Positions 3,595 through 42,983 of a stretch of 64,000 nucleotides of DNA are shown here, one piece after another. The stretch's first letter is position 1. Each line of letters opens with the position of its first letter. Origin of the DNA: Acidimicrobiaceae bacterium (GTDB taxonomy: Bacteria; Actinomycetota; Acidimicrobiia; Acidimicrobiales; RAAP-2); contig PLZW01000023.1 of the NCBI GenBank assembly GCA_003153575.1, positions 50,060 to 114,059 of the forward strand. Reading direction: 5' to 3'. The position numbers and the translations under genes were made by a program. Below the pieces are notes generated by a model. The model saw only the letters and a list, made by a program, of their open reading frames with translations. It was not told the origin of the DNA and made no database searches.

Positions 3595-3599
3595 TCAGC
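3595..3599. repeat. Target-site duplication TCAGC, left copy
   Basis: TCAGC directly precedes the TGTG left terminus of the transposon and is repeated exactly at 40080-40084 after the CACA right terminus. A 5-bp duplication is the known signature of Tn7-family and Mu-type transposition. Confidence 0.85.
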
Positions 3600-3648
3600 T
3601 GTGATCTGTCGCGGATTGTCACTGGGATTTGTCGTTTGATGTCACCGA
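3600..3648 (+). repeat. Left transposon end: terminal inverted repeat with two 22-bp transposase-site-like units
   Basis: TGTGA is followed by two 22-base units (3605-3626, 3627-3648), each with a GTCAC box at the same offset (TTGTCAC and ATGTCAC). Aligned base for base with the reverse complement of the right end, about two thirds of positions match, with the GTCA boxes and the TTTG boxes in register. A third unit further in is not evident. Confidence 0.75.
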
Positions 3649-3681
3649 CCTCTATTGCTTGCAAGAGTTAGCACGCTACTC

Positions 3682-3706
3682 CCCCGCCGGAACTGGGCCG
3701 GCGGGG
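3682..3706. other. Subterminal hairpin inside the left end
   Basis: Inverted repeat CCCCGCCGG / CCGGCGGGG (3682-3690, 3698-3706) with a seven-base loop, about 80 bases inside the left terminus. It may act as a transcriptional insulator. A similar hairpin lies inside the right end (39938-39961). The stretch 3707-3911 shows no gene I can support. Confidence 0.4.
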
Positions 3707-3911
3707 CACAGAGTCCCTGTTCAGTGATCGAAACCGCAGTACCGCGGCCGACCATACGGACCCAGTCATAGAGAGGAACTCCGGAGGTTCCTGAGTCTGT
3801 ATTCCTGACCAGGTACTTCGCCAGGTAATCCCTGTTCACGAGCCTCGCGACCGGCCGGCCAACGGGGTGGCTGAAACCTGGCCAGCACTACCATCGGACA
3901 ACCTCCAACGC

Positions 3912-3917
3912 TACCGT
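3912..3917 (+). promoter_or_regulatory. Candidate -10 box of a leaderless promoter (OGG-like gene)
   Basis: TACCGT fits TANNNT and is followed seven bases later by the GTG at 3925, which has no ribosome binding site. This supports choosing that GTG as the start. Confidence 0.35.
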
Positions 3918-3924
3918 TGGGTAC

Positions 3925-4710
3925 GTGGCGGGCGGCGCGAACCCATACCAACGAGGGCCTGCAGTGCCGTCCAAGCAAGCAGCCGCGGCGAGTGCCACCT
4001 TCGGTCGACTTCTGGCGACGCAGACATGGCTCGGACCGGTCATCCAGCAGCACGGTCCACCGCTGCGGCGCCTGGAGTGCGTCCTCGGCCGTCGGTGGCG
4101 TGGCGTGGCGACAGCCATCAGTGATCCGGCACTGAGTAACGCCGCGGTCGACCTGATCGATCGACGATGTCCGCCGGTCAAAGGGGCGGACCACCGGACG
4201 TGGTTGGGGATCGATCGTCCGTTCCTCAAGAAGTTGAGCGCGGGAGCCCGCACGTCCGATCAGGATTTGGTCCAGTTGTGGCTGGCCACGATGATGTGGG
4301 GTTACGCAACCGACAACAGGGGGCCGTCCCGCGTCGGCAAGGCCATGAACCAGTCATGGGCGACATTCGTCCGCAAGCTGCGCCTCTCACTGGAGCGGAT
4401 CGACAACCGCCAGTTCGTCGATGCCTATCGGGGAAGCCAGTCGCAGGGCCTGAGCTACCTGCCGGGGATCGCTGACTCGTTCTTCACCAAGTGGTTCTGG
4501 ACTGTGAGCCTCGGCAACCCACGCCTACCGCTCACGCTGCTCATCTTCGACGGCAGAGTGGCGGGGTCGGCCACAGGCAAGACATGGGCGCTCCAGGGCA
4601 AGAACGTCGCCGAGCGGTATGTGTACCTCTGCGAGCTCGTCGAGTTGGTCGCGACAGCCCAGGGGCTCAGCTCGGAACAGGTCGAGTACGGCCTCTACTG
4701 CGCTGGTTGA
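3925..4710 (+). CDS. Putative 8-oxoguanine DNA glycosylase OGG-fold protein
   Basis: A 261-residue protein. The middle and C-terminal parts (LATMMWGYATDNRGPSRV, then LPGIADSFFTKWFW and LTLLIFDGRVAGS) resemble the OGG-fold family, helix-hairpin-helix DNA glycosylase relatives often found in actinobacteria as unassigned genes. Whether it cuts damaged or foreign DNA is not known. The start is a GTG with a leaderless-type -10 box. It is followed by a kinase gene 127 bases downstream, and its last 300 bases are duplicated at 6877-7176, on the other side of the kinase. Family assignment is from memory of the pattern, so moderate. Confidence 0.6.
   Translation: MAGGANPYQRGPAVPSKQAAAASATFGRLLATQTWLGPVIQQHGPPLRRLECVLGRRWRGVATAISDPALSNAAVDLIDRRCPPVKGADHRTWLGIDRPFLKKLSAGARTSDQDLVQLWLATMMWGYATDNRGPSRVGKAMNQSWATFVRKLRLSLERIDNRQFVDAYRGSQSQGLSYLPGIADSFFTKWFWTVSLGNPRLPLTLLIFDGRVAGSATGKTWALQGKNVAERYVYLCELVELVATAQGLSSEQVEYGLYCAG
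4411..4710 (+). repeat. 300-bp direct repeat, copy 1 (3' end of the OGG-like gene)
   Basis: Aligns without gaps to 6877-7176. By hand count 27 of 300 positions differ, about 91 percent identity, and most differences are synonymous. Both copies end at the stop codon. The pair brackets the kinase and zinc-ribbon genes. Confidence 0.9.
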
Positions 4711-4837
4711 CAAGGCCCATGGTCCGGTTCTCGGGTCCTACCGACGGTACGCTGCGCCGATGCCCAGCAGCGCAACAGTCGTTAGGCATGTGGGCCCCTG
4801 CCACTACTCCACCACCTACTAACCCTGGTAGTCACCG

Positions 4838-6211
4838 ATGACGGAATCACAACCTTCGCCGGTCGGGCCGTGGGCCCGGCATGAGGAGCTCGGACGTGGC
4901 GGTAACGCCACGGTCTGGCGCGCCACGCAGGCCGGCGGCCTCGCGGTGGCACTGAAGGTCATCAACGAGACCAAGGTGCAGAGCGAGTCCTACCAGCGCT
5001 TCACGCGTGAGGTGGACTTCTTCCGACGTAACGGGTCAATCCCGGGCGTGCTCCCGATGCTGGACTCCTACCTGCCAGAGCATCCGAGCAAGAACGATCG
5101 TGCATGGCTTTCCATGCCCATCGCTACACCTATCGAGCGTGCACTCGATAGTCGACCCCTTGCTGATGTTGTCGACGCGGTTGCGACGATCTCAGAGACG
5201 CTTGCTCGTCTTCAGCACGACCACGGCGTCGGTCACCGGGACATCAAGCCTGGCAACCTCTACGAGCTTGGCGGCGAGTGGCTCATCGGTGACTTCGGTC
5301 TGATCTCGGTACCCGACGCAGCGTCACTCACCGAGGACGGGCGCCAAGTGGGCCCTGCGCACTTCACCGCTTACGAAATGATCCTGAATCCGACGGAGGC
5401 CAATCCGCACATGGCCGACGTCTACTCGCTGGGGAAGGCACTCTGGGTACTCGCCACCGGTCAACGGTACGCACCCAGCGGTCATCAGGCGGTTGGAAAC
5501 GGCATGGGGGTCGGGGAGAACCGGCCCCATCCGAGATCCCTGGCACTTGACGAAGAGATCGACCTCATGACCCAGCTCCGCCCAGAAGATCGGCCCACGA
5601 TGGAGCAGGTCTCGCGCGACCTTCGCGCCTGGCTCGCACTCGGCAGCACTGCCCCAGCTCTCGATGTCTCTGCTTCCAAGACTGCGCTACGGGCGAAGCT
5701 CCAGACATCTCTCGCTGCGCGTGACTCCGAAGAGCTCCACAAGGAGATGGCCTTCGCAGCTGTCCGACGAATGCAGGAGCTCGTCCGGCCACTCAACGAC
5801 GAACTGAAGTCGCTCGATTCACGCACGCAGATCGACCTCACGAACGACGAACTGACCAAGAACCACCTGGCGGTTCCACACGAGTTCCGGCACGCGGCGA
5901 TTTGGAGCTGGCAGCGGTGCACGCGAGTCGCGCCGGTTGAGGGACCTGCGGCACCTGTCCTGCGAATGTCGAGAGCGCTGCACTTACTGGACGACGGAAC
6001 CCTCGTGCTGCAGATGCTCGTCCTGGTCTCACCGAATAGCGTCTTCGGCCAATACTTCGCTTGGTCGCCCGCCGAGTCGGCGACTGCGCCGGTGGGCACG
6101 ATCGAGGCCAATCTGATGCTGGACGACGGAGTTCGCGAGCTCGCTGTAGCTGTAGCCGCTGGCGTCGTCGCCCTCGTGGAGGCGCTTCCGGATCAGTCCG
6201 CGGGAGGCTGA
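4838..6211 (+). CDS. Hanks-type Ser/Thr protein kinase with a unique C-terminal domain
   Basis: A 457-residue kinase. The N-terminal catalytic domain (about 1-265) shows the glycine loop GRGGNATVW (19-27), VALK with Lys40, HRDIKPGN (133-140, catalytic Asp135) and DFG (152-154), so it should be active. The remaining 190 residues contain no transmembrane helix or PASTA repeat, unlike housekeeping PknB; they include a probable helical linker and an unknown alpha/beta region. It is a soluble kinase, as in several phage-defence kinases (inference). It lies between the two OGG repeat copies and converges with the zinc-ribbon gene by 19 bases. Confidence 0.85.
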   Translation: MTESQPSPVGPWARHEELGRGGNATVWRATQAGGLAVALKVINETKVQSESYQRFTREVDFFRRNGSIPGVLPMLDSYLPEHPSKNDRAWLSMPIATPIERALDSRPLADVVDAVATISETLARLQHDHGVGHRDIKPGNLYELGGEWLIGDFGLISVPDAASLTEDGRQVGPAHFTAYEMILNPTEANPHMADVYSLGKALWVLATGQRYAPSGHQAVGNGMGVGENRPHPRSLALDEEIDLMTQLRPEDRPTMEQVSRDLRAWLALGSTAPALDVSASKTALRAKLQTSLAARDSEELHKEMAFAAVRRMQELVRPLNDELKSLDSRTQIDLTNDELTKNHLAVPHEFRHAAIWSWQRCTRVAPVEGPAAPVLRMSRALHLLDDGTLVLQMLVLVSPNSVFGQYFAWSPAESATAPVGTIEANLMLDDGVRELAVAVAAGVVALVEALPDQSAGG

Positions 6212-6876: not shown

Positions 6877-7176
6877 CAGTTCGTCGATGCCTATCGGGGA
6901 AGCCAGTCGCAGGGCCTGAGCTACCTGCCGGGGATCGCTGACTCTTTCTTCGCCAAGTGGTTCTGGACGGTGAGCCTCGGCAACTCGCGGCTGCCACTGA
7001 CGCTGCTCATCTTCGACGGCAGGGTGGCGGGGTCCGCCACAGGCAAGGCGTGGGCACTCCAGGGCAAGAACGTCGCCGAGCGGTACGTGTACTTCTGCGA
7101 GCTCGTCGAACCGGTGGCGACGGCGCAAGGGCTCAGCGCCGAGCAGGTCGAGTACGGCCTCTACTGCGCCGGTTGA
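6877..7176 (+). pseudogene. Truncated second copy of the OGG-like gene (3' 300 bases only)
   Basis: Encodes the last 99 residues of the OGG-fold protein at 3925-4710 and its stop codon, with about 91 percent nucleotide identity and no indel. The frame is open further left to 6718, but that part has no similarity to the first gene and no clear start signal, so I treat this as a displaced gene end rather than a functional gene. It marks the right boundary of the kinase cassette. Confidence 0.75.
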
Positions 7177-7462
7177 CGCCGCTCGACTGCCCACTCCTCG
7201 GGCCATGGACACTGGGTCTTCGGCAGCGCTGCCCCACTCGAGAGGCACCCACCAGGGAATGGCTTGCCGTGCAATTCGGTATAGCCGGGCGACAGAAGCA
7301 TGGTGTCGTTGAACGCTGTCTGCTTCTCAGCAGCGATCGCGTCGTACGCCTCCCAGTCCACCACGGGATTGCGCAGCGCTGCTATCAACTTGCGACAGCC
7401 CGCTGATAACGGGCGCTGGCCTCGTCCATCGCATCCAAGTGCCCTTCGGTCCACCACTCCAC
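7161..7462 (-). pseudogene. Small protein gene interrupted by a frameshift (or two coupled small ORFs)
   Basis: A GTG at 7462 has a good ribosome binding site (AAGGGG, six bases upstream) and encodes MEWWTEGHLDAMDEASARYQ and five more residues before a TGA at 7385-7387. In another frame, overlapping this stop as TTGA, an ORF of 75 residues continues (LIAALRNPVVDWEAYDA...) to a TAG at 7161. Joined, the two give a plausible 100-residue helical protein. This is either a frameshift mutation, a recoding site or a TTG-coupled second gene. Its 3' end overlaps the OGG remnant by 16 bases. Confidence 0.45.
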
Positions 7463-7809: not shown

Positions 7810-10347
7810 TTACAACCTCGGATCCACCGGCTCGCTCTCGAGGGCGAGGACGCCGAAGACGCACTCGTGCACCCGGTAGAGCGGCTCGCGGGCCACGAAG
7901 CGCTCGAGTGACTCGATGCCGAGGGCGAACTCCCGGATGGCGAGGCCCCGCTTGCGGCCGAGCCCTCGGGACCGCAGGCGCGACAGGTGTCGCTCGGCGG
8001 TGTACTCGGGTCCGTAGATGATCCGTAGGTACTCGCGCCCGCGCACCTTGATCCCCGGCTGGGCCAAACCGTCCGGTCCCTTGTGGACCACGTCGATCGG
8101 TTTCACCACCATGCCTTCGCCGCCTGCTGCAGTGAGCTCCTCCCACCAGGTGGTGGCCCCCTCGACTGATGCCTCGTCATCGACGTCCACGGTGATCGAC
8201 CGGGTCGCGCGGAAGGTCACCGGATCGGTTGCCGTAAGGCGTCCGAGAACCTCCAAGTGCCAGAGGTGGTCGCGCAGGGCGTAGACCTCGCCCTCGCCCG
8301 CAAGGATCTGGAACGGGGCCAGCTTCAGGTCGTCCAGAGTCACCACCGGCCAGCAGTACTCCCCGTAGGCAGCGATGAAGCCGTCGACCATGCTGGCCCG
8401 CTCGCCCATGTGGCCGAGCAGGTCAGCGACGTCGGTGCCCCGCTCGCCGGCCGCTTCGACGATGGCCAGCTCGGCCCGCACTGTCCGGGCCGCGGCCGCC
8501 CCCACTGGTGCGTACTGACGGCGGAGCAGCTCCTCGGCCTTGGCCGACCATGGCATCAGCTCGCAGTCGAGGATCAACCACTCCGTGCCGAGCTCGCCCC
8601 ACAGGCCGGCCGCGGTGACCCCGGCGCGGATCCGCTCGAGGAACTGGGCCTCGAGGGTGGGGTCGGTGAAGAAGGGGCGACCGGTCCGGGTGTAGATCAC
8701 GCCCCCGGCCGCCGACTCGATGCCGAACCGCGCCCGAGCCACCGACGGCTCGCGGCAAACCACGGCAATGGCCCGGGACCCCATGTGCTTCTCCTCACAC
8801 ACCACCTGCTCCACCCCGGCGGCCCGAAAGGCGGCGAACGCCTCGTGGGGGTGCTCGAGCATCCCCTCCCTATTCGAGGTGGCCGTGGGCGACATGGTCG
8901 GCGGGAGGTAGGCCAGCCAGCGGGGATCGACGGCAAAGCGGCTCATCACCTCGAGCGCGGCGATGGCGTTTTCCTCCCGGATGGTGATCGAGGTGGTCAG
9001 CCGGGTCTCGAGGATCCGCTTGCCGACCACGTCTTCGAGGTCAAGGTCCGTCCCCTCCCGGGCGTCCTTGAGCGGTTGGTCGGGGACGAGTGGCTTGGCC
9101 GGCTCGTAGTACATCTTCTGCGCCGGGACCGAGACGAGTTCCTTTTCGGGGTAGCGGAGCGCGGTGAGTTGGCCCCCGAACACACATCCCGTGTCGATGC
9201 AGATGGTCCGGTTGAGCCAGACCGCCTCGGGGACCGGGGTGTGCCCGTAGACCACGTTGGCCTTGCCGCGGTAATCCTCCGCCCACGGGTAGCGGATGGG
9301 CAGGCCGTACTCGTCGGTCTCCCCGGTGGTGTCCCCGTAGAGGGAGAACGATCGCACGGCGCCCGAGGCCCTGCCCTGCATGTTCTCGGGCAAGCCAGCG
9401 TGGGTGACGACCAGGTCACCGTCGTCGAGCACGTAGTGGCTGATGAGGCCGTCGATGAAGGCGGCCACCTGGGTAGAGAACTCAGGAGGCTCGGCGGCCA
9501 ACTGCTCGAGGCTCTCAGCCAGTCCGTGGCTGGGGGTGACCTTGCGGCCGTTGAGGGCCCGCAACAGCTTCACTTCGTGGTTCCCTGGGATGCACAGGGC
9601 CGTGCCCTCCTCGACCATCCCCATCACCAGGCGCAGCACGGCCGGGGTGGCCGGGCCGCGGTCCACCAGGTCACCGAGGAACAGCGCCCGGCGGCCACCG
9701 GGATGGCGGGCCGAGGTGCCATCGGCATCGACCTCGTAGCCCAAGGTCCCGAGCAGCTCGACCAGCTCGGTGTGACACCCGTGGATGTCGCCGATGATGT
9801 CGAAGGGCCCGTGGTCGCTGCGCCGGTCGTTCCACAGCGGCTCGCGCTCGATCACCACGTCGGCGATCTCAGCCTCGTCCAGGTGGTACACCCGGGAGAA
9901 GCCCTCCCGACGCAGGCCCCGCATCGAGCGGCGCAGCTGGGAGCGCTGGTTGCGCAGCACATGGGGCCCGAACTGGCGGTCGGGCCGTGAGGCGTTGCGT
10001 TCGATGCAGGTGGCCTCGGACACGTCGAGGACGATGGCCACGGCCAGCGTGTGGTGGGACTTGGCCAGGTCGATGAGCCCCTTGCGGGCAGGGGGCTGGA
10101 CGTTGGTCGCGTCCACCACGCACAGCCGACCGGCCTCGAGTCGCTTGCCGGCCACGTAGTGCAGCACGTCGAAGGCCGCGTTGGTGGCCGCCTGGTCGTT
10201 CTCGTCATCGGACACCAGCCCGCGGAAGAAGTCGGAGGACAGGACCTCGGTCGGGAGGAAGTGGTTGGCGGCGAACGTCGACTTGCCGGACCCGGTCACC
10301 CCCACCAGGGCCACCACGCAGAGCTCGGGGATCTTGATCGTGGTCAT
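7810..10347 (-). CDS. pnkp: Polynucleotide kinase-phosphatase-ligase Pnkp (bacterial RNA repair)
   Basis: An 845-residue three-domain RNA end-healing enzyme. In order: 5'-kinase with P-loop GVTGSGKST (about residues 16-24); calcineurin-like 2',3'-phosphatase starting FDIIGDIHGCHTE (about 184-196) with GDLVDRGP and GNHE motifs; and a C-terminal adenylyltransferase/ligase with the lysine motif EEKHMGSR. This is the full-length architecture known from Clostridium thermocellum Pnkp. It acts with Hen1 to heal RNAs cut by ribotoxins, with the Hen1 mark preventing recutting. The start overlaps the hen1 stop (ATGA, 10344-10347). Confidence 0.95.
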   Translation of the reverse strand: MTTIKIPELCVVALVGVTGSGKSTFAANHFLPTEVLSSDFFRGLVSDDENDQAATNAAFDVLHYVAGKRLEAGRLCVVDATNVQPPARKGLIDLAKSHHTLAVAIVLDVSEATCIERNASRPDRQFGPHVLRNQRSQLRRSMRGLRREGFSRVYHLDEAEIADVVIEREPLWNDRRSDHGPFDIIGDIHGCHTELVELLGTLGYEVDADGTSARHPGGRRALFLGDLVDRGPATPAVLRLVMGMVEEGTALCIPGNHEVKLLRALNGRKVTPSHGLAESLEQLAAEPPEFSTQVAAFIDGLISHYVLDDGDLVVTHAGLPENMQGRASGAVRSFSLYGDTTGETDEYGLPIRYPWAEDYRGKANVVYGHTPVPEAVWLNRTICIDTGCVFGGQLTALRYPEKELVSVPAQKMYYEPAKPLVPDQPLKDAREGTDLDLEDVVGKRILETRLTTSITIREENAIAALEVMSRFAVDPRWLAYLPPTMSPTATSNREGMLEHPHEAFAAFRAAGVEQVVCEEKHMGSRAIAVVCREPSVARARFGIESAAGGVIYTRTGRPFFTDPTLEAQFLERIRAGVTAAGLWGELGTEWLILDCELMPWSAKAEELLRRQYAPVGAAAARTVRAELAIVEAAGERGTDVADLLGHMGERASMVDGFIAAYGEYCWPVVTLDDLKLAPFQILAGEGEVYALRDHLWHLEVLGRLTATDPVTFRATRSITVDVDDEASVEGATTWWEELTAAGGEGMVVKPIDVVHKGPDGLAQPGIKVRGREYLRIIYGPEYTAERHLSRLRSRGLGRKRGLAIREFALGIESLERFVAREPLYRVHECVFGVLALESEPVDPRL

Positions 10348-11744
10348 CGGCTGAACACCGCCATCTGGGTAGGCGAACCCACCTCGGGGTCATCGGGTCC
10401 AATGCCCGAGCGGGCCACGGAGTACCCCTGGCGCGCAGCCACCCCATCGGTCCAGGAGGCGAATTCGGCCCGGGTCCACTCGAAGCGGTGGTCCCGGTGG
10501 CGCAGCTCGCCGGCCGGCAGCGTCTCGAACCGGACGTTGTACTCGACGTTGGGTGTGGTGACGATGACCGTCTGCGGGTGGGCGTGGGTGAACACGGCCC
10601 GCTCGAAGCTGCCGAGGCGCGAGGGATCCAGGTGCTCGATGACCTCCATCACCACCGCGGCGTCGAAGTCGGCGAGGCGGCGGTCCCGATAGGTGAGCGA
10701 CCCCTGGAACAGGTCGACTCGAGCCCGCTGGCGGGGCGCCATCGTGTCGAAGTGCAGCCGGCGGGCCCCCACCTCGAGCACCCGGTGGGAGACGTCGATG
10801 CCCACCACCCGCTCGAGTCCCTGCTCCTTCAGCAGGACCCGCATGAGGTTGCCCGCCCCGCAGCCCAGGTCGAGCACCCGGCGCGCCCCGCTAGCCCGCA
10901 CTGCGTCGACCACTGCATCGGTGCGCTGCTGGTTGAGGCTGATCGGCTTCTCTACCGCCTCCTCCTCGGCGTCGTGGCTGGCCTGGGCCGCATCGGGGTC
11001 GGTGGGGTCGTCCTCCATCAAGCGTCCCAGCGCCTCCTCGGTCAGCTTGCGGTCGTGACGGAGGTAGCGCCGAGTGATCAGGTCGCGCTCGGGATGGTCG
11101 GCAAGCCAGTCCCCGCCGCGGCGGAGGAGCTTGTCGATCTCGTCGGCGCCAACCCAGTAGTGCTTGTCGTCGTCCAACACGGGCAGCAGGACGAACAGTT
11201 GCTCCAGTACCGACTTGAGGGTCGCCGTCGTCGACAGCGTGAGATCCAGGTAACGGCTCATGCCCCACTCGGGGAACTTCGGGTCGAGGGGGATCTCCTC
11301 GGCGACCACGGTGTACCCCAATGGCTCGAACAGGCGGGTAGCCACATCGACCCCACCGCGGCACGGGGTGACCGGCAGGCGAACCTCGAGGTTGATGGCC
11401 TCGGCCGCGAGCTCCGGACGCTCCTTGCTCCGTCCGGTCATGGCCGTGGAGAACATCTTGCCCAGCACCACGGACGTGAACGACGAGGTGACGTAGGGCC
11501 GGTCGTTCACGTACTGGGCGAGGGAGAAGTCGTTGCCTTTCGAGCCGGGCCGCCCACGGACGAGGCCCACCGGGTCGACGTCAACGACCAGACCCGCGGT
11601 GCACCGCTCCTCGCTGGCCTCGGGGAAGAGCACGTGCCCCACGCCAAATCCGAACTCGGCCGTGTGGTGGCCACCCGGGTTCTTGTGCAGGAGGAAGCCG
11701 AGATCGGTGGCCGGCTTATGATCTGTCGAGATGGTGAGGAGCAT
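10344..11744 (-). CDS. hen1: 3'-terminal RNA ribose 2'-O-methyltransferase Hen1
   Basis: A 466-residue bacterial Hen1. The N-terminal half (LLTISTDHKPATDLGFLLHK, GVGHVLFPEAS) activates Pnkp ligase, and the C-terminal half is a Rossmann methyltransferase (RVLDLGCGAGNLMRVLL, VGIDVSHRVL) that 2'-O-methylates the 3'-terminal ribose at the break. Metal ligands of the family are suggested by VVMEVIEHLD and VIVTTPNVEYN. Upstream gene of the two-gene repair operon, coupled to pnkp. The 160 bases between it and the DUF429 gene contain the probable promoter. Housed here inside the transposon. Confidence 0.95.
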   Translation of the reverse strand: MLLTISTDHKPATDLGFLLHKNPGGHHTAEFGFGVGHVLFPEASEERCTAGLVVDVDPVGLVRGRPGSKGNDFSLAQYVNDRPYVTSSFTSVVLGKMFSTAMTGRSKERPELAAEAINLEVRLPVTPCRGGVDVATRLFEPLGYTVVAEEIPLDPKFPEWGMSRYLDLTLSTTATLKSVLEQLFVLLPVLDDDKHYWVGADEIDKLLRRGGDWLADHPERDLITRRYLRHDRKLTEEALGRLMEDDPTDPDAAQASHDAEEEAVEKPISLNQQRTDAVVDAVRASGARRVLDLGCGAGNLMRVLLKEQGLERVVGIDVSHRVLEVGARRLHFDTMAPRQRARVDLFQGSLTYRDRRLADFDAAVVMEVIEHLDPSRLGSFERAVFTHAHPQTVIVTTPNVEYNVRFETLPAGELRHRDHRFEWTRAEFASWTDGVAARQGYSVARSGIGPDDPEVGSPTQMAVFSR

Positions 11745-11904: not shown

Positions 11905-12564
11905 TCAGCGCCAGATGGCGCCAATCCGCTGGGAGCCTGCAGGTAGGGCCCGGCCCTCCCCCGCTGCAATGCGCGTGGCCGACCAGGCTGCGATCGCCGC
12001 GTCCAGCACGTCGGCCACATCGGCCGCCCCGCCGGGGCCGAGGTCAGCGGGGAGGACGATCCCCTCGCGCTCGAGGATCCCCCGGCGCAGGCCGATCCCG
12101 TTCCAGGTCGACTTCGGCCACTCGAGCGGTCGGCCGTGGGATTGGGCGAAAGAGACCTCGGGGTGCACCTCCCAGATCCGCTCATCGGCCGCGGCCAGGG
12201 GCTGGACGGCCAGGATCTGCTTCTTGAGGGCGAACGACTGGGCCGCGAGTCCCGGCCACCCCTGCTCCTTGGCCAACACGTTGGCCTCAGCTGCGGTCTC
12301 GGTCTCCAGCAGCTCCGCCGACGGGGTGAAGAACACCGAGTTGCGTCGGGCGCCCACGAAGGCCCGGGCTTCGAGGTCAGCCGGCCGGCGCTCCCCCGCT
12401 GCCGGCAGCCCGATCGGCATGTCGACCCCGATGGTCGCGGCCTCCGCGAGCTCAGCCACTGCGTCCTCGATGGTGGTGACGACGAAGGCCCGGGTGAACT
12501 GGCCGTCCTCGAGCACGACGACGACCCAGCGGCCCTTCCAGACATCAGCTCCGGCTACCAGCAC
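11905..12564 (-). CDS. DUF429 domain protein
   Basis: A 219-residue DUF429 family protein (RNase H-like fold predicted for the family): N-terminal AGADVWKGRWVVVVLEDG with the first acidic residue, IGVDMPIGLP second strand, then RRNSVFFTP and WEVHPEVSFAQ, all typical. Biochemical role unknown. It lies upstream of hen1 on the same strand but 160 bases away. Its first 54 codons are duplicated at 17843-18004, on the far side of the ubiquitin-like operon, which is divergently transcribed from it. Confidence 0.85.
   Translation of the reverse strand: MLVAGADVWKGRWVVVVLEDGQFTRAFVVTTIEDAVAELAEAATIGVDMPIGLPAAGERRPADLEARAFVGARRNSVFFTPSAELLETETAAEANVLAKEQGWPGLAAQSFALKKQILAVQPLAAADERIWEVHPEVSFAQSHGRPLEWPKSTWNGIGLRRGILEREGIVLPADLGPGGAADVADVLDAAIAAWSATRIAAGEGRALPAGSQRIGAIWR
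12403..12564 (-). repeat. 162-bp direct repeat, copy 1 (5' end of DUF429 gene)
   Basis: The first 54 codons of the intact DUF429 gene align without gaps with 17843-18004 in the same orientation. At the protein level 45 of 54 residues match. The two copies bracket the seven-gene ubiquitin-like operon. Confidence 0.8.
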
Positions 12565-12711
12565 GGGTTGATCCTGCCGCAGAATCAGCGCCCTCGGTGG
12601 AGCACCGGGCCAGCGTGGTGCATCTGGCGTCGAGGCCGTAGTCGCAAATTGGACCCTGTGGAAGACCCGACCGGGTTCGTCGGCGCAGCACAGTGGTGCA
12701 CCTCGAGGACC

Positions 12712-12850: not shown

Positions 12851-13150
12851 ATGACCAGTCCCACTGACCCGACCACCGAGCACGAGCACATCCGGGTGAC
12901 CGTCCGTACCCCCTCAGGGGCCAGCCACGAGTTCAGCTTCCGACCGGCCGAGCTGGTTGTCGCTGCCACGGCAACTGCCGTTGAGCACTTCGTGAAGGCC
13001 AAGGAGTTGGCTCCTGACGACTACGGGCTTGCTCTGGTGCGCTCGGGCACTGCCGTGGCGCTGCTCGACACGAACGAGCTCCGCTCGGACGCCATCGTGG
13101 ACGGTGACGTCCTCCACCTCGTCATCGAGAAGCCCCAGGTCGACGGATGA
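12851..13150 (+). CDS. Ubiquitin-like (beta-grasp) protein, first gene of a conjugation operon
   Basis: A 99-residue protein starting at ATG 12851, chosen for the strong AAGGAGG seven bases upstream. The sequence alternates as expected for a beta-grasp fold: IRVTVRTPSGASHEFSF (strands 1-2), a helix ATAVEHFVKAKELA, YGLALVRSGTAVALLD and VDGDVLHLVIEKP. It ends in a single glycine (QVDG), so it may need no trimming. A single ubiquitin-like domain, unlike the two-domain BilA (known from Bil systems). Its stop overlaps the E2-like start (ATGA). Assignment rests on fold pattern plus E1/E2/JAB neighbours. Confidence 0.75.
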   Translation: MTSPTDPTTEHEHIRVTVRTPSGASHEFSFRPAELVVAATATAVEHFVKAKELAPDDYGLALVRSGTAVALLDTNELRSDAIVDGDVLHLVIEKPQVDG

Positions 13151-33390: not shown

Positions 33391-34154
33391 GTCCCGCGGC
33401 CGGCTCGACAAAGCGTAAGGCTGACACTCCGGCCGTCTGGCAGCTGCCACCAGCCACAGTGCACACCGCGAGCTTCCTGGTGGCCCAGACCATCGCCACC
33501 AAAGCCGTGGACCACACCTCGATCGCCGGCATCTTCGGCGATCCGGGGACCGGCAAGACCTATGCGCTCCAGCACTTCTGTGCCCACAGTGGGGTCGAGA
33601 GCGTGTACGTGACCGCCTCCACCTCACCCCAGCGCAAGGAGATCTACGAGGAGATCCTCCTCGCCATCACCGCTCATGTTCCCGACCTCTCGGCTCGCGA
33701 CCTGCGCCGCCGGTGCCACGAGGTGCTCGCCGAACACAGGCGGGTCGTCATCGTCGACGAGTGCCAGAACCTCAGTCTCACCTGGCACAACCAGTTGCGG
33801 AACCTCCACGATCACGGGGACGCTGCGTTCGCGCTCATCCTGGCCGGCGGGACCAACGCGGAGAGGGCCCTCAGTCGTGACCAGCAGATGTGGAGCCGGA
33901 TCACGCTTCGGACCACGTTCGGCGCACTCGAGGACCAGGAGCTGCTCAACACCCTCGCGTCCTTCCATCCGGTGTTCGCCAACACCGACGACGAACTGCT
34001 CCTCATGATCGACGCCCGAGACTGCAGAGGCAACCTTCGCAACTGGGCGGCGTTTCTCACCATCGCCCTACCCTTCGTGGGTGCCAGCTCCCGGCCGGAC
34101 CGCGTGACGGCGAAGGTCGTCCGATCAGTCTTCGCCCTGCGGGGTGTCGAATGA
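33387..34154 (+). CDS. TnsC/TniB/MuB-like AAA+ ATPase
   Basis: A 255-residue AAA+ ATPase. Walker A GIFGDPGTGKT (48-58), Walker B VVIVDECQNL (120-129, Asp124 Glu125), and sensor region LILAGGTNAERAL then RITLRTTFGAL. Small like IstB/TniB rather than the longer TnsC of Tn7. It should form a filament on target DNA and recruit the transposase. Overlaps the neighbours at both ends. Confidence 0.88.
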   Translation: MSPAAGSTKRKADTPAVWQLPPATVHTASFLVAQTIATKAVDHTSIAGIFGDPGTGKTYALQHFCAHSGVESVYVTASTSPQRKEIYEEILLAITAHVPDLSARDLRRRCHEVLAEHRRVVIVDECQNLSLTWHNQLRNLHDHGDAAFALILAGGTNAERALSRDQQMWSRITLRTTFGALEDQELLNTLASFHPVFANTDDELLLMIDARDCRGNLRNWAAFLTIALPFVGASSRPDRVTAKVVRSVFALRGVE

Positions 34155-35386
34155 GCGCGCAACTTCACTCCGTAGTGGTCCACCCCGACACCGAGAGTGC
34201 GCGCCGCCTCCGTCGTGCGTCCAATCCGGACGCCGGCATCGTGGTGGCCGCGGTGCCGCCGGACATGCGCCGCAGCTACGAGCTGACCTGGGAGCTGTTG
34301 GTCGGCATGGGCAAGATGCCGGACGTCGCAGGGGCCGGCCGGCGTGAGGACCTGAACTGGGAGGTGCTGGCGGCCTGGATCGGTGCCCATCGCATCGAGC
34401 ACCTCGTCCTGGTCGATACCCAGTGGATCGGCCCAAAGTTCCTCGGCGACATCGTCGGGCTGGCTGCCGTCACCGGGGTGGACCTGTGGCTCGTCGCCCA
34501 ACAGCCCCTGGACGATGGCTACGTCGTCGCCCTGTCCGGGTGGCCGGTGATCGAAGGGCCCGCCGACGAGCTGGCCCGGCTGGTGGCCGCAGCACTACAG
34601 ATGTCCGAGACCTACGTGGTCCCGGACTTCCCGGCGGTGCCAGCGGACAACTACCCAACCTTCCGGGCCGAGGCCCGCCGGGTCCTGTCTGGGTCGGAGT
34701 TCGATCAGGTAGATGCCACCTACCGGGCGGCATTCTCGGCGGCCGCGGCCTCGTTCGCTCAGCTGGTGGAAGGACCCGGGATCACCGAGGACAGGGTCCT
34801 GTACGAGATCCGTCACCAGCTCCACCGCTGTGGGACAGCCGAGGAGATGGTGGTCTGCGTGCGTGGGTGCCAAGCCGCTGCCCACCGTGCCGGGTGGCTG
34901 GTCTCGGCGGTACTCCCCCGGCTAGTAGTGACTTCGGAGATGGCGTCGCGAGCAGCAGTGCATGCGCCCTCTACATGGAAGCGCCTGCGGGCCTACCGGG
35001 AGCCCTACCGCGGGGCGGCCTGCGCCTTGGCCGCACTCGACCTCTCGATACAGACGATCAGCGGGGTCCGCATCGCCGACGTCAGTGGCAGTGGCCAAGA
35101 GCTCGAGGTGCCGATGGCCGGCGAGCTGGTGCACTTGGAGGTCCCGGCCGGGGCGGACCTCTACCTCCGGGCCCAGGTGGCGCACCGCCTGATCCAGGGT
35201 GCGGTCCCAGACGAGCTCCTCTTCGCCACGGAGGAAGGGCCGATGGCCTCCAAGCATCTGGCAGATGCCATCCGGGCACCGATCACCGAAGTCGGGGTGC
35301 CGCTTTACTCCCAGACCCTCGAGCGGGTGGAGCTCGATGCGAAGCGATGGGCGCTCCGCTGGGGCCTTTCGGTCCAGGAGCTGTGA
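34151..35386 (+). CDS. Hypothetical protein with a tyrosine-recombinase-like C-terminus lacking catalytic residues
   Basis: A 411-residue protein of unknown function. The N-terminal half contains alpha/beta elements (AGIVVAAVPPDMRRSYELTW, HLVLVDTQWIGPKFLGDIVG). The C-terminal 135 residues (WKRLRAYREPYRGAACALAAL ... GVRIADV ... DELLFATEEGPMASKHLADAI) follow the order of a tyrosine recombinase fold, but I see no HxxR motif or nucleophilic tyrosine, so it would be a DNA-binding relic. It takes the place where TnsD/TniQ genes usually lie, and is therefore the first candidate for target selection (inference). Confidence 0.5.
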   Translation: MSAQLHSVVVHPDTESARRLRRASNPDAGIVVAAVPPDMRRSYELTWELLVGMGKMPDVAGAGRREDLNWEVLAAWIGAHRIEHLVLVDTQWIGPKFLGDIVGLAAVTGVDLWLVAQQPLDDGYVVALSGWPVIEGPADELARLVAAALQMSETYVVPDFPAVPADNYPTFRAEARRVLSGSEFDQVDATYRAAFSAAAASFAQLVEGPGITEDRVLYEIRHQLHRCGTAEEMVVCVRGCQAAAHRAGWLVSAVLPRLVVTSEMASRAAVHAPSTWKRLRAYREPYRGAACALAALDLSIQTISGVRIADVSGSGQELEVPMAGELVHLEVPAGADLYLRAQVAHRLIQGAVPDELLFATEEGPMASKHLADAIRAPITEVGVPLYSQTLERVELDAKRWALRWGLSVQEL

Positions 35387-36210
35387 TGGCCGCCTGCGTG
35401 CAGTTGGACACGACACTGATCCGCCGCCGGCGGGCGGAGCTCGGCATCTCCGTGCGGGCGGCGGCCGAGACGATCGGGCTCTCGGGGCCCACCTTCACGA
35501 GGCTCGAGAGTGGGTCCGACCACGGCGGCCTGGAGTTGGGCGTGGTTGTTCGCCTGGCCTCCCTGCTCGGCTTGAGCCTCGACCAACTCATCGTCCAGGG
35601 TCAAGGAGCGGTCACATCTGCCGGCGAGCCGGCGGGGATCGCTGCGGACGTAGCTGCTCTCGGGGCAGTGCTGTTCGCCACCCAGACGCACACTCCGGTG
35701 GGCACGCTGTGCGAGGTCCACGGGTGGACCCTCGCCCGGCTCCATACGGCCGAAGAGGCACTGAAGGCCGCCCTCTGCCACGTGGGGATCACCCTGTCCC
35801 GGCAGAACGCCCGGCTGGGTCTGGCGCGTGCCGAGGGGGCGGTCGACCAGGACGTGCTCCAGCGAGCTCTGCGCAAGCATCAGGGCCGGGACCACGTCTC
35901 GATCACCGAGGCCCGGCTGCTCCACCGCATCGAGCATGGCGATGCTCCGACTCAGCCGAGCAACACCGAGCGAGTGGCTCTGGGGATGTTGGTCAACGCT
36001 GTCCTCATCACCTTCGGACCCAGCCGGCCGAAGGGCGAGGCGCCGCTGATCCTCTGCGAGGACGTTCGGTTCAGCCTGCTGATCGACGAGGAACCGGGTC
36101 CGCGTGCCGCCCCGCGACGACCGCGCCGTGGTCCGGCGTGTGATCCCGATGTACCACCACCAACGCCCACCAACGCCCACCGGAAGAGTAGAGAGAAGCG
36201 ACAGCCATGA
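35386..36210 (+). CDS. XRE-family HTH regulator in the transposition operon
   Basis: A 274-residue protein with an N-terminal XRE helix-turn-helix (LIRRRRAELGISVRAAAETIGLSGPTFTRLE, about 11-41) and a second DNA-binding-like helical region in the middle (TLCEVHGWTLARLHTAEEALKAAL). The basic Pro/Arg-rich tail is probably disordered. It starts at ATG 35386 within TGATG shared with the previous gene. It may repress the operon through the GTCGCG-n6-CGCGAC sites or take part in target choice. Confidence 0.75.
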   Translation: MAACVQLDTTLIRRRRAELGISVRAAAETIGLSGPTFTRLESGSDHGGLELGVVVRLASLLGLSLDQLIVQGQGAVTSAGEPAGIAADVAALGAVLFATQTHTPVGTLCEVHGWTLARLHTAEEALKAALCHVGITLSRQNARLGLARAEGAVDQDVLQRALRKHQGRDHVSITEARLLHRIEHGDAPTQPSNTERVALGMLVNAVLITFGPSRPKGEAPLILCEDVRFSLLIDEEPGPRAAPRRPRRGPACDPDVPPPTPTNAHRKSREKRQP

Positions 36211-36845
36211 CAAAGGACCGACAAGGACCCACCGACGAGGAAGGCCATCCACCGCGCGAAAAGGAGTTCTGGGGCCTGGAGACCGCCATTGCCTGGTCGA
36301 CCAGTCCTACCCCACCACGGTTCGATGGCCAGCTTCGCTCAGCCCTGCATGTGGTCGATGAACTCGTCCCACGCCTCTACCACCTCTGGGGCTGGATCGC
36401 TGTGGACGACGACAGTGCCGTGCAGGGAGTGTGTTTACCGGGCCTGCTGGTCATCAACAGGACATGGTTCCTGAGCCCCGCCTTGTTCGACCGCATCGAG
36501 AGCCTGAGCGCCCGGTGGAACCATGAAGGCAACCTGGAGCTCACGGGAGACGGGCTGTGGCTAGGCACTGGACGGCCGCTTGAGGAACTTGACGTCGTGG
36601 CACTCGACTGGTGGATCGGCGAGGCGACGGATCGCTTCGCTGGCAGGATGGAGGTTGAGGATGTGGGACCAGGCGACGATCCGCCGTGGGAAGAGCTCTG
36701 CGTTCTGGAGGCCGGAGCGCCGTCGTGCGCAGACTGCGGTGGCCCCGTCGAGCGGCCGGACGAGGTCTGTGAGACGTGCTGGATCCGGCTCGAGGTCGAC
36801 TTGGCCATCGCAACCTGGGGGCCTCTGCCGGAAAGCGACCGATAG
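36207..36845 (+). CDS. Hypothetical protein with C-terminal zinc ribbon, last gene of the transposition operon
   Basis: A 212-residue acidic protein: LRSALHVVDELVPRLYHLWGWIAVDDD at the centre and a zinc-ribbon tail CADCGGPVERPDEVCETCW (about 183-201). Coupled to the HTH gene by ATGA (36207-36210). No family recognised. Convergent with the M41-like peptidase gene, 19 bases away. Confidence 0.6.
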   Translation: MTKDRQGPTDEEGHPPREKEFWGLETAIAWSTSPTPPRFDGQLRSALHVVDELVPRLYHLWGWIAVDDDSAVQGVCLPGLLVINRTWFLSPALFDRIESLSARWNHEGNLELTGDGLWLGTGRPLEELDVVALDWWIGEATDRFAGRMEVEDVGPGDDPPWEELCVLEAGAPSCADCGGPVERPDEVCETCWIRLEVDLAIATWGPLPESDR

Positions 36846-36864: not shown

Positions 36865-37413
36865 TCAGCGTGCCTGCTCAACCAGGTCGCAGACCTCGGC
36901 GTACGTGAGAGGCGCATAGTCATCGTTGCCCAATGCCCTCGCTGTCGCCGTGACGGCGGGACTCAATGACTCCAACAGGGCTCCGGCAGCCTTGAGTGCA
37001 TCCTTCAACGGCTGGCCGAGTGCGGTGGCCAGGGTCTCGTCAGTCTGGTCCTCCAGGAGCCCTGCGTAGTTTCGCCAGAGATTGAGGTCGGTTCTGTACG
37101 AGCCATCCAGACAGTGCTTGAAGGCGCCGTACTCAGCAAGCGCGCCGGCCACCAGGAACTGAAAGGAGCCCACCAGATCACGTTTGACCAGCTCCTCGAC
37201 GTCCTCGGGACTTGCCATTTGGACCCCGCCCCCAGTTAGCCGACCAACGTCACTCTTGTTGTCCCTTGGGTCACGGCTGATCGACACGTCCACAAACGCG
37301 ATGCCCAGATGCACCGCCATCACCGCATGCCCAGCCTCGTGGAGCACTGCGTGGCTCAGCCCTCCGTGTTCGAGACAGAGCGCATTCCAGAAGGCAGCCG
37401 GGGTGAGGCTCAC
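36865..37413 (-). CDS. M41-like metallopeptidase (FtsH-peptidase-related, no AAA domain)
   Basis: A 182-residue protein with VLHEAGHAVMAVHLG, the zinc motif and hydrophobic context of the FtsH M41 peptidase, and a later segment FLVAGALAEYGAFKHC ... SYRTDLNLW in which Asp may be the third ligand, as in FtsH. There is no ATPase or transmembrane part, so it is a stand-alone soluble enzyme. Coupled by ATGA (37410-37413) to an upstream small HTH-like gene. By analogy with peptidase-regulator pairs the neighbour could be its substrate (inference). Confidence 0.7.
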   Translation of the reverse strand: MSLTPAAFWNALCLEHGGLSHAVLHEAGHAVMAVHLGIAFVDVSISRDPRDNKSDVGRLTGGGVQMASPEDVEELVKRDLVGSFQFLVAGALAEYGAFKHCLDGSYRTDLNLWRNYAGLLEDQTDETLATALGQPLKDALKAAGALLESLSPAVTATARALGNDDYAPLTYAEVCDLVEQAR

Positions 37414-37799
37414 CGGGTGCGCCGGCGAGTGATGGGGAACGTCGGTCCCTGGATCAGCGTCTCGGTCAGTGCGTTGAGCGGGAATGACCGGCGAGGTTCA
37501 CCGGTCAGCCACGTCCAGCGGATGAGATCGTTCTCGGTGGCCGGCACCTGACCTGTGAGCTTCCGCCACAGACCGTCACGCCGGCAGAGAAGTTTGGAGG
37601 CGAGATCTGGGATCGAGAACTTCCCCGCCTGTAGCGTCGCGGTGATCGCACAGGCGAGCTCATGCTGCTCACGAGCACGGTGAAGGAGCACGGCACCCGG
37701 CTCGTCGGTGGCCAGTCGCCACACAGCATCAGGGTCTTGGCCGAACCCACTGGAGTTCAGCAATAGATCACGGGGAACGAAGGAGGGTCGATGGGCCAC
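37410..37799 (-). CDS. Small HTH-like protein paired with the M41-like peptidase
   Basis: A 129-residue protein; the central region ISDL-type helices (KFSIPDLASKLLCRRDGLWRKLTGQVPATENDLIRW) look like a helix-turn-helix that opens with a gene-regulatory pattern. The C-terminus is basic (PITRRRTR). First gene of a two-gene operon with the M41-like peptidase. Function not recognised. Confidence 0.5.
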   Translation of the reverse strand: MAHRPSFVPRDLLLNSSGFGQDPDAVWRLATDEPGAVLLHRAREQHELACAITATLQAGKFSIPDLASKLLCRRDGLWRKLTGQVPATENDLIRWTWLTGEPRRSFPLNALTETLIQGPTFPITRRRTR

Positions 37800-37852
37800 G
37801 CGCAGTCAGCCGAGGACGGTACAGCGTCTCGGCCAGCCCGATGTTGGTCTGT

Positions 37853-39898
37853 TCACTCGGTCTCTTCGCCCAATCGACGCAGGCTTCGTCGGTGGAGGAA
37901 CGGAGCCAACCGCTTCTCGACTCTGTTTGCGAAGTCCCGGGCGTTCCACCCCCATCCCGACCCCGCAATCGTGGCCAGTCCCGCCAGTACGGCCAGGACT
38001 CCGGCCGGAATCCTGAGCCAGGTCACCGAGCTCAAGGCCGGTACCACCGTGACGATGATGCCCAGGGCCACCGATACTGCGAGGACGATGGTGAGGCCGA
38101 CGAACACACTCCGACCGAAGCGCTTGGCCCGGTGCTCGGCATTGGCCATGAGCCGGCCATGGCGAGCCACCTTGTCTGCCGCCAGGGCCGAGACCGCCGC
38201 CTGCTCCGCCGCCAACGTCGCTGCAGCTGCCGCCCTCTCCTGGCGCGCCGCCGTCTCCTCGGCAGCTGTTCTCCGGTTACGCTCATCCTCAAGTTCGGCC
38301 TGCACTGGGGCAGTGATCGCAGCCTCTGCTGAAGCAAGGACTTGTCGGACCACCCTGTCGTCAATGGCGTCTTCTTCGCCGAACGTCGAATCCATCAGGG
38401 CGCGCTGCGCAGGTACGGAATAGCGCATGATGTCGAGTTGCTTGTCGGAGAAGTCCCCCCGCTCTGCGGTCCGCTCGATTTCCGCAAGGTACCGGTTCCA
38501 CATGGCCTCGCTGGGGCGGAGTGCGGCGTAGCAGTCGGCCATGATCTGCTTGCGGGGAAGGTCCGGCGCATCAAGTGGTGTCTTGAGCCACATCAGCGTG
38601 GCAAGCTCACCGTCGAGCATCGCATGGGGCCAGCTATGACCATCTTCCTCGAGGCGGAAGAATTCCCTGCTGGCGGCAGTCAGCTTTCCATTGGTCGTCA
38701 CGAAGATGGCCTTGCTGTCCTCCATGATCGAGGTCCGCTGTCCCCGGCGAAGCCGATGGACCGCAGTCAAGGCATCGAGGTCATGGCGCATCGTCGTGTC
38801 TCGCGCGTAGTGCACATGGCGCGAGAGGACCTCCTCGAAGCGTCGCTCGTCGACCCCGAGATCAATGGTGTAGCCAGGAGCGGCAACGACTCGGACATCC
38901 ATCCGCCGGAGGACGTCATCGAGCTGAGCTGCCTCGATCTCAACATCAGCCTTCTTGAAGCCCCGCAGCAGGAACTGGCGACTCACCTCGTTGGTGGGAG
39001 TAGCCCCGCTCCGTCCACTCGGAGGAGTCGCTGACAAGACCACCCCTCGAAGCTCGGCCAATGTCGCATCGAAGCAAGCCAGCCTCGCCCCGCCCTCCAC
39101 TAGCAGGTGAAGCAGCTCCAAAGCTGGGGCCTTGAGCTCGGCACCCAAGTAGCCCAGGGCCCGGAGCATGAAGGGTGTATCGAGGTACACAGTCACATCC
39201 CCGAACTTGCGCTCCACCGCTCCTGGATTCGGCAGGTAGACGAGGCTAGTCAACATGCTGCCCTCGACGATGGTCTGGAAGTACCTGAACGAGCTCAGAT
39301 TGGTGGACGCGAGGTACTCGACAAAGGCGTGCACGACATAGAGCAACTCCGCGTCTGTCACCGCACGCGGCTCTGGAGGCAGGTCAGCGATCCCTCGTAG
39401 CAACGTGGTCGCGCCGAACTCGCTCACGTATGCGTCTAGGGCTGAGGATGCCTGTTGATCAGTTAGCAGCTTCTCGTAGCGCTCGGCGGCGAATGCTCGC
39501 ATCTGTGCGATGAGCGTCTCATAGCACTGGATCAGCTCCTGCCTTTTCGGCGTCAGGATGCGCTCATCCAGCTTCTCGAGGTTGGGCTGATAGGAGCCAT
39601 CGATACCCGTCGCGAGCCCATCCCGCACAGCTCGACGCAGCAGGGCTTCGACAACCTGCTGAGGGATCTGCATGCCGAAGATCTTCCTCAAACTTTTCTG
39701 AACAGCCGATGGAGTCACCGGGCCCGGCGCGGAGCGCAAGCACTCGGCGACGAAGGGGACGAAGGTGTCGAGGTAGCTTCGACCGCGGTTGTAGTTCTCC
39801 TTGAGAATCGCCAAACTCACCAGGCGCGGTGGGAACGCCGATTGCCGGTTGGCGGATGAATCCGCCGTCCTGTTCACCTTTTCAGCTGGCTGCCCCAT
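37853..39898 (-). CDS. Large PIN-like, coiled-coil and membrane protein next to the right transposon end
   Basis: A 681-residue protein. Helical N-terminus (about 1-230), then a PIN-like nuclease domain (VTVYLDTPFMLRALGY, ACFDATLAELRG, TTMRHDLDALTAVHRL, IFVTTNGKLTAASREF), in which acidic residues fall where PIN domains bind metal. An alanine-rich coiled coil follows (about 530-590) and then two transmembrane helices (about 600-650: FVGLTIVLAVSVALGIIVTVVP and AGVLAVLAGLATIAGS). A membrane-tethered nuclease of this build is a reasonable abortive-infection effector (inference). It lies 88 bases from the right-end repeats. Confidence 0.6.
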   Translation of the reverse strand: MGQPAEKVNRTADSSANRQSAFPPRLVSLAILKENYNRGRSYLDTFVPFVAECLRSAPGPVTPSAVQKSLRKIFGMQIPQQVVEALLRRAVRDGLATGIDGSYQPNLEKLDERILTPKRQELIQCYETLIAQMRAFAAERYEKLLTDQQASSALDAYVSEFGATTLLRGIADLPPEPRAVTDAELLYVVHAFVEYLASTNLSSFRYFQTIVEGSMLTSLVYLPNPGAVERKFGDVTVYLDTPFMLRALGYLGAELKAPALELLHLLVEGGARLACFDATLAELRGVVLSATPPSGRSGATPTNEVSRQFLLRGFKKADVEIEAAQLDDVLRRMDVRVVAAPGYTIDLGVDERRFEEVLSRHVHYARDTTMRHDLDALTAVHRLRRGQRTSIMEDSKAIFVTTNGKLTAASREFFRLEEDGHSWPHAMLDGELATLMWLKTPLDAPDLPRKQIMADCYAALRPSEAMWNRYLAEIERTAERGDFSDKQLDIMRYSVPAQRALMDSTFGEEDAIDDRVVRQVLASAEAAITAPVQAELEDERNRRTAAEETAARQERAAAAATLAAEQAAVSALAADKVARHGRLMANAEHRAKRFGRSVFVGLTIVLAVSVALGIIVTVVPALSSVTWLRIPAGVLAVLAGLATIAGSGWGWNARDFANRVEKRLAPFLHRRSLRRLGEETE

Positions 39899-39937
39899 GC
39901 CACTCCCCTACTGGATCTTGTCGTGCAGGCGTGCAAA

Positions 39938-39961
39938 GGCGGGACCCCGCTGGGTCCCGCC
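39938..39961. terminator. Subterminal hairpin inside the right end
   Basis: Perfect inverted repeat GGCGGGACCC/GGGTCCCGCC with a CGCT loop (39938-39947, 39952-39961), with short A and T runs beside it. It lies between the PIN-like gene promoter and the transposon end and could stop nrdJ read-through into the element. Confidence 0.5.
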
Positions 39962-39986
39962 TTCACTGCTTGCTACTGCTAGCGAT

Positions 39987-40079
39987 CGCATGTCATCTGC
40001 CGTCAAATCTCGGTGTCATCTGCCCAAATTCGCGTGACATCTGGCGTCAAAAGCCGATGACACTTGGCCTCAAAGCACA
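39987..40079 (-). repeat. Right transposon end: terminal repeat with four tandem 22-bp units
   Basis: Read inward on the minus strand: TGTGC, then four 22-base units (40053-40074, 40031-40052, 40009-40030, 39987-40008) sharing the pattern TTTGAcgcCAGATGwCAC. This matches the known layout of Tn7, whose right end has four adjacent 22-bp TnsB sites and is proximal to the target gene. Here it is proximal to nrdJ. Confidence 0.85.

Positions 40080-42983
<2,904 letters not shown>

Follow-up and report, generated by a model that had tools for sequence, protein, structure and literature searches.

A Tn7-like transposon directly behind nrdJ in an Acidimicrobiaceae genome, with a candidate target selector other than TniQ

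Tn7 makes a 5-bp target duplication and has asymmetric end arrays, and Tn5053/Tn402 elements encode the resolvase TniR in addition to TniQ. Insertion of Tn7 at glmS is carried out by TnsABCD (PMC2918618). As far as the accessible parts of two comparative studies go, the known Tn7-like targeting pathways run via TniQ/TnsD, via TnsE, or via a partner working with TniQ (Faure 2023, PMC10293859; Benler 2021); one such partner, TnsF of Tn6022, has an inactivated, truncated tyrosine-recombinase domain, selects comM and needs TniQ (Faure 2023). Here we describe a 36,480-bp Tn7-like element that lies directly behind the stop codon of nrdJ in an Acidimicrobiaceae bacterium (assembly GCA_003153575.1, 2.98 Mb in 43 contigs, 76% complete). 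The stretch analyzed, called the window below, comprises 64,000 nucleotides (contig PLZW01000023.1, our C9, positions 50060-114059). The main interest of the element is how its place of insertion is found, and we put the probability at roughly three in four that the protein encoded behind tnsC, Orf3, replaces TniQ and directs TnsB and TnsC together with a helix-turn-helix (HTH) protein. The features on which this reading draws are as follows (window coordinates).

3512-3545, no strand: hairpin with a perfect 15-bp stem beyond the left end, probably the nrdJ terminator in displaced position
3595-3599, no strand: left copy of the target duplication, TCAGC
3600-3650, + strand: left end, TGTG..., with two end units
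31271-31840, + strand: TnsA-like protein (start codon uncertain, 31130 possible)
31813-33390, + strand: TnsB-like DDE transposase (D172, D251 and E287 by reading)
33387-34154, + strand: TnsC-like AAA+ ATPase with Walker A and Walker B
34151-35386, + strand: Orf3, proposed target selector, with a predicted TnsC/MuB-like domain (residues 1-139) and a predicted truncated, dead tyrosine-recombinase domain (about 258-392)
35383-36210, + strand: XRE-type HTH protein, proposed partner of Orf3, fused to Orf3 in two homologues
39985-40079, - strand: right end, ...CACA, with four end units of about 22 bp
40080-40084, no strand: right TCAGC copy, the TCA of which reads as the nrdJ stop codon on the opposite strand
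40080-43244, - strand: nrdJ, B12-dependent ribonucleotide reductase, whose 3' end is the insertion site

The original prediction for this DNA had placed a Tn7-like transposon at 3595-40084, with alignable TGTG...CACA ends, 22-bp units at both ends and a perfect TCAGC duplication, and had supposed that all modules between 3.6 and 40.1 kb moved as one unit. The ends proved correct, although that span counts in both copies of the duplication; the element proper runs from the TGTG at 3600 to the CACA finishing at 40079. A gapless 46-nt alignment of the left and right termini from TGTG scored 16, compared with 14 for the best of 500 shuffles. When the whole window was scanned for TGT/ACA pairs with identical 5-bp flanks and a spacing of at least 3 kb, the pair of this element ranked first of 173 (score 15; runner-up 9). 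The right end contains a 40-nt direct repeat at 44-nt spacing, and its lag-44 autocorrelation was matched by none of 300 shuffles; this repeat test bears out the four right-end units, and the two at the left were found by reading. The ends, the duplication and the rank of the pair support movement as one unit.

The transposition genes form a run of five overlapping + strand genes at 31.1-36.2 kb, in the order tnsA-like, tnsB, tnsC, orf3 and hth. TnsB matched PF00665 (rve; E 5.9e-11) and PF09299 (Mu-transpos_C), and the closest solved TnsB by sequence was ShTnsB (E 4.5e-10); TnsC, with the Walker A motif GDPGTGKT, matched AAA_22 and TniB, and the closest solved TnsC was ShTnsC (E 1.8e-4). Both identities had been predicted correctly. 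Not part of the original prediction were the shared target exactly at the nrdJ stop, the failure to find a TniQ, Orf3, and the TnsA remnant. The transposase gene occurs once in the 2.98-Mb assembly (76% complete). With its TG...CA ends, arrays of about 22-bp units, 5-bp target-site duplication (TSD), TnsB-type DDE transposase and TnsC-type AAA+ ATPase, the locus is well supported as a single Tn7-like transposon with intact ends. A single-sequence TnsB scan and an alignment scan of genome contigs, and an alignment scan of viral contigs, returned no relatives; a TnsB match was present in 7 of 100 genomes, own included, the other six being distant and partial.

The last base of the element directly adjoins the nrdJ stop codon, nrdJ being on the other strand; the stop therefore falls inside the duplication and nrdJ remains whole. 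NrdJ ends in a conserved Cys-rich tail, encoded by the final codons of its gene. A right end at this base (offset 0 from the stop) was found in five elements, namely those of the window, G012, G234/G439, G1014 and G916 (G and C numbers are our handles for genomes and contigs, and L numbers for loci). We propose that they belong to an nrdJ-site family, defined by a right end directly behind the nrdJ stop, which all five possess. The core proteins in G234/G439, G1014 and G916 are 26-33% identical to those of the window.

The element on G234:C111 (22,398 bp) has near-perfect ends and a TSD of CTACG and abuts the nrdJ stop; its Orf3, TnsC and TnsB are 26, 27 and 32% identical to the window proteins. 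G439:C47 is 100% identical to G234:C111 over 5,405 bp, which rules out two separate elements. These are metagenome-assembled genomes (MAGs) of different families that hold identical contig stretches, with flanks matching G015, a member of the same family as the window host; this points to a G015-like host as the origin of the contig, with misbinning in both assemblies. G1014, a single 5.56-Mb contig related to the window at phylum level only, carries a 25,120-bp element with TSD TCAGC that abuts the nrdJ stop (TnsB 29%, TnsC 33% and Orf3 27% identical); among 66 upstream TCAGC sites, the one at its left end scored highest (9; next 4). In G916, likewise one contig (4.64 Mb), the right end adjoins the nrdJ stop and a single frame passes from a TnsC-like start into the middle of Orf3; TnsB and a left end were looked for there and not found, so that the element is regarded as a remnant. 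In G012, of the same genus as the window host, the right end starts at the same nrdJ base, and the contig stops 3.1 kb further; it carries homologues of the 681-aa (56% identical) and 129-aa (45% identical) proteins encoded near the right end of the window element.

The right-end repeat signal was reached by 0 of 300 shuffles for the window, 1 for G916, 3 for G234, 18 for G021, 21 for G012, 25 for G1014 and 39 for G007, and only the first three stand out. G012 and G1014 were accepted on other grounds, the former for homologous cargo at the same base and the latter for its TSD on both sides. By eye, the DNA downstream of nrdJ in G007 and G021 (L062, L063) looks like further transposon right ends, at a level not above shuffles, and the G007 flank encodes a protein that on reading resembles the product of window positions 20561-21124.

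Comparison with an unoccupied nrdJ 3' end had been proposed as a check. The empty site of the window element itself was not found, since its joined flanks matched relatives solely from the junction inward, over nrdJ. For the sister element on G234:C111, the joined flanks matched G015 with a single mismatch and a single gap, of 15 nt, within nrdJ; the left flank and TSD agreed at 127 of 127 bases, and CTACG was present once, which makes this a direct and clean empty site. Strong hairpins stand outside the left ends in the window (-36.0 kcal/mol) and in G1014 (-32.7 kcal/mol), and both look like displaced nrdJ terminators. The roughly 10 kb left of the element (window 1-3594 and L081 14001-20000) has a G+C content of 0.60-0.65, compared with about 0.71 further left, and is probably foreign DNA acquired earlier behind this site. 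The left-flank proteins (arginase, LCM and DUF2071) were sought in the nrdJ-downstream DNA of relatives, and none was found there.

Orf3 (411 aa) had zero Pfam matches even at E 1. According to an AlphaFold model and fold search, its N-terminal domain is TnsC/MuB-like and devoid of a P-loop, with MuB among the best fold matches; fold and profile matches identify its C-terminal part as a truncated tyrosine recombinase, the catalytic residues of which are lost in the alignment as read. Orf3 is thus predicted to be a TnsC/MuB-like domain joined to a catalytically dead tyrosine recombinase. No report of such a fusion, or of nrdJ as a Tn7-like target, was found in the literature searched, most subscription papers and nearly all preprints being outside its reach. 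For the HTH protein, which contains a DNA-binding domain of the Cro/CI type, the AlphaFold-type model was poor (predicted template-modeling score 0.33), and structure searches gave weak ScpB-like and XRE matches. Among the listed fold matches of Orf3 and the HTH protein there was no TniQ structure, an observation given no weight here. An HTH gene follows orf3 in G331:C223, G312, G1014, G916 and G234. In G974:C18 (L130, 13006-15040), two tandem TnsC-like matches precede an Orf3-like frame, an arrangement that may illustrate the origin of the TnsC-like domain of Orf3.

Outside the window, 14 Orf3-like loci were counted, seven from a search of the order (in 6 genomes) and seven from a search of the phylum (G1014, G916, G854, G976, G964, G974 and G1142). 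Matching genomes, own included each time, numbered at least 7 of 397 in the order, at least 2 of 395 in the class sample and 28 of 396 in the phylum; the order and class searches scored four candidates per genome, and their counts are lower bounds. Within the family of the window host (172 genomes), Orf3 occurred in the window only. The 14 loci leave out G854:C109 (54 residues) and 21 weaker phylum-search matches to the recombinase part only; of 20 such recombinase-part loci examined, 16 contain an open reading frame (ORF) with the recombinase H-x-L-R-H motif. Four of the 14 loci, representing three distinct elements, are at nrdJ. A tree of 31 Orf3 proteins separated the four nrdJ-site proteins from those of G117, G172, G312 and G331 at 92/82 support.

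We suggest, by analogy with Tn7, where TnsD acts at the glmS end and TnsC stands between selector and transposase, that the nrdJ site is selected by Orf3 and the HTH protein. Binding to the final nrdJ codons would fall to the HTH protein together with the recombinase-derived part of Orf3, while the TnsC-like part, lacking a P-loop, would act as an adaptor that nucleates the TnsC filament. TnsB would join the ends just past the stop; nrdJ would remain whole, with its terminator displaced beyond the opposite end of the element. Somewhat less firmly than for this single element, we consider it probable that there is a TniQ-independent Tn7-like branch in which a P-loop-less TnsC relative carrying a domesticated tyrosine recombinase reads the last codons of nrdJ, seeds the TnsC filament, homes to one base across Actinomycetota and ferries interchangeable anti-phage cargo (type I restriction-modification (RM) with RNA repair, DISARM, or type IIG RM).

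The TnsA-like gene (orf0) was also considered as cargo only. This was rejected: G1014 has a 36% identical counterpart upstream of TnsB, and the G1014 and G234 proteins show, on motif reading, the D...DE-x-K pattern typical of PD-(D/E)XK nucleases, on account of which orf0 is read as TnsA. Among the nine database proteins listed for this gene, the window's own included (P0040, 99%), eight cover the relevant stretch, and in all eight, again including that of the window, the PD-(D/E)XK residues appear lost. Loss of TnsA catalysis blocks cut-and-paste and not replicative transposition, as stated in Benler 2021. Since these residues are lost and no resolvase was present among the scanned ORFs, transposition of the window copy would be replicative, through a cointegrate.

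Several observations limit the nrdJ pattern. Nine of the 14 Orf3-like loci had no nrdJ in the DNA retrieved around them, and the G117 element (20,224 bp, TSD CGAGG) sits inside an ORF of about 238 aa, another target. Label shuffling equaled the nrdJ grouping of the tree in 72 of 500 cases, and the long branches render that grouping uncertain. The G1014 pair of ends was absent from the pairs listed by the unanchored scan, and in the scan anchored near the stop it came second, with 9 compared with 11 for a pair at offset 16. Scans for ends at the loci of G331, G172, G312, G854, G964, G974, G1142 and G976 gave no convincing pair.

The site might instead be picked by a conventional TniQ or TnsD, either provided in trans or diverged beyond the reach of Pfam, with Orf3 and the HTH protein merely regulating. 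The window assembly is incomplete, the TniQ search was negative in all 14 named control genomes, which leaves G172 as its sole positive control, and short-TniQ elements may borrow selectors in trans (Faure 2023, PMC10293859). We nevertheless judge this explanation unlikely. The TniQ model, PF06527, worked in G172 (65.7 bits, on a contig other than the Orf3-bearing one) and found no match in the other 12 of 13 assemblies (G000, which is that of the window, G234, G439, G117, G312, G331, G1014, G916, G012, G015, G007 and G021), two of which are single-contig and estimated to be 95-96% complete. The gene behind tnsC was rejected as a TniQ itself, neither Orf3 nor the HTH protein having a TniQ Pfam match even at E 1, and the two genes stay paired over about 25% identity. 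The missing match leaves membership of the Tn7-like family standing, as TnsD/TniQ is not a universal feature; it is present in 73-97% of these elements per clade in Benler 2021. We give equally little credence to recognition of the nrdJ 3' end by TnsB/TnsC or the HTH protein alone, with Orf3 as an accessory, for instance a factor for TnsC disassembly or immunity. The HTH protein does have a DNA-binding domain and TnsC-like paralogues could modulate TnsC, but the non-catalytic recombinase-derived domain of Orf3 parallels that of TnsF, a tested selector (Faure 2023), and G117, with the same TnsB-TnsC-Orf3 layout and a different Orf3, is at a different target.

Selection of the site by Orf3 and the HTH protein also has to be set against a permissive nrdJ 3' end, a hotspot for many elements at which the positional match would reflect ascertainment or selection. 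In G006 and G011, phage-integrase-like genes with matches just below the Pfam cut-off start no more than about 1.2 kb from the nrdJ stop (L064:245-1708 and L065:1-1086), which speaks for a place common to other elements; the nrdJ 3' end may also serve a further type of element, in the way that comM is used by both Tsy and Tn6022. These genes were rejected as an evident source of the Orf3 recombinase domain (HHalign to the two-row set, E 0.5). Selection against disruption would permit a range of positions, whereas the offset was 0 in five elements, and of the proteins flanking the element in the window, NrdJ alone turned up near the G1014 and G916 loci, both retrieved by Orf3 alone; a mere hotspot is thus quite improbable. 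An assembly or binning error joining the element to nrdJ is the least credible possibility, scarcely worth entertaining: the data do include MAGs, among them the almost surely misbinned copies in G234 and G439, but the same junction is present in the single-contig genomes G1014 and G916, and G015 has the empty site.

The remaining genes of the element are listed below.

3925-4710, + strand: cargo, OGG-like DNA glycosylase family
4838-6211, + strand: cargo, Ser/Thr kinase similar to the MADS6 and PD-T4-6 models
7810-10347, - strand: cargo, Pnkp, RNA repair
10344-11744, - strand: cargo, Hen1, RNA repair
12851-17749, + strand: cargo, likely ubiquitin-like / CEHH / E1-ThiF-like / sigma / XRE / M78 (CapP-like) cluster; M78 clear, most other matches weak
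21833-24586, + strand: cargo, 917-aa protein, likely a DUF4062-NACHT-type NTPase (weak matches only)
24640-30862, - strand: cargo, type I RM proteins HsdR, HsdS and HsdM
36207-36845, + strand: 212-aa protein
36865-37413, - strand: 182-aa protein
37410-37799, - strand: 129-aa protein, with homologues beside nrdJ in G012 and G234:C224
37853-39898, - strand: 681-aa protein at the right end, with its homologue in the same place in G012

The predicted packing with defence and repair genes holds for type I RM (HsdM matched a PADLOC model at E 1.7e-261), Pnkp/Hen1 and the CapP-like peptidase, which are clear family matches; several other 'defence' genes are just likely. A further proposed check, for the same kind of ends around other cargo, was borne out, as Tn7-like ends at the nrdJ site enclose quite different genes in G234 (DrmD, DrmMI and DrmA, that is, DISARM) and in G1014 (a type IIG RM enzyme and a SNF2-PLD helicase). 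Elements at the same nrdJ site carry differing cargo with putative defence roles, assigned by similarity, and in Actinomycetota the nrdJ 3' end deserves attention in searches for defence systems. The G117 element carries type I RM, with HsdR and HsdM 42 and 48% identical to those of the window. Two copies (4411-4711 and 6877-7177; 91% identity) of a 301-bp segment, corresponding to the 3' part of the OGG-like gene, flank the kinase/zinc-ribbon pair, which suggests that the pair arrived by recombination. A second internal repeat (12403-12583 and 17843-18023; 181 bp, 82% identity) brackets the ubiquitin-like/E1/sigma/M78 cluster.

Compared with known systems, the window element resembles Tn7 in its insertion just past the 3' end of a conserved housekeeping gene, its TnsA/B/C core, its 5-bp duplication and its asymmetric end arrays, but Tn7 uses TnsD, of the TniQ family, whereas none was found here and the window TnsA-like protein is without nuclease residues. 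Type V-K CRISPR-associated transposons (CASTs) and Tn5053-like elements are nearest in the solved TnsB and TnsC proteins; the window differs from them in that no TniQ was found in its assembly and no Cas effector or resolvase among the scanned ORFs, and likewise from Tn5053/Tn402, with their TniQ and resolvase. No Cas family was present in the scanned subset of ORFs and no Rfam match in the window, a dedicated CRISPR-array search not being part of the analysis. A likeness to Mu and IS21 is seen in the MuB fold matches of Orf3 and in TnsB matches to IS21/IS481 far under their cut-offs, but end arrays of the Tn7 kind and a fixed site in the chromosome set the element apart.

The closest parallel is Tn6022 with TnsF: both elements are Tn7-like, have an inactivated, truncated recombinase domain in the selector (here the proposed one), occupy a fixed site in a conserved gene, and have separate tyrosine-recombinase elements at the same gene (Tsy at comM; the integrase-like genes by nrdJ in G006 and G011). 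Tn6022 inserts inside comM, however, while the window element leaves nrdJ intact; TnsF has N-terminal zinc fingers, whereas the N-terminus of Orf3 is predicted to be TnsC/MuB-like and shows no Cys clusters in its aligned columns; and TnsF acts via a TniQ of the same operon, whereas no TniQ match was found here in the operon or assembly. Orf3 shares the principle of TnsF and fails its other features, and is therefore not classed as a TnsF. If our reading is true, TniQ is dispensable where DNA recognition is joined directly to a TnsC-like domain, a compact system inserts tens of kilobases behind a conserved gene while leaving it unbroken, and Orf3 would be the second case, after TnsF, of a recombinase domesticated as a target selector.

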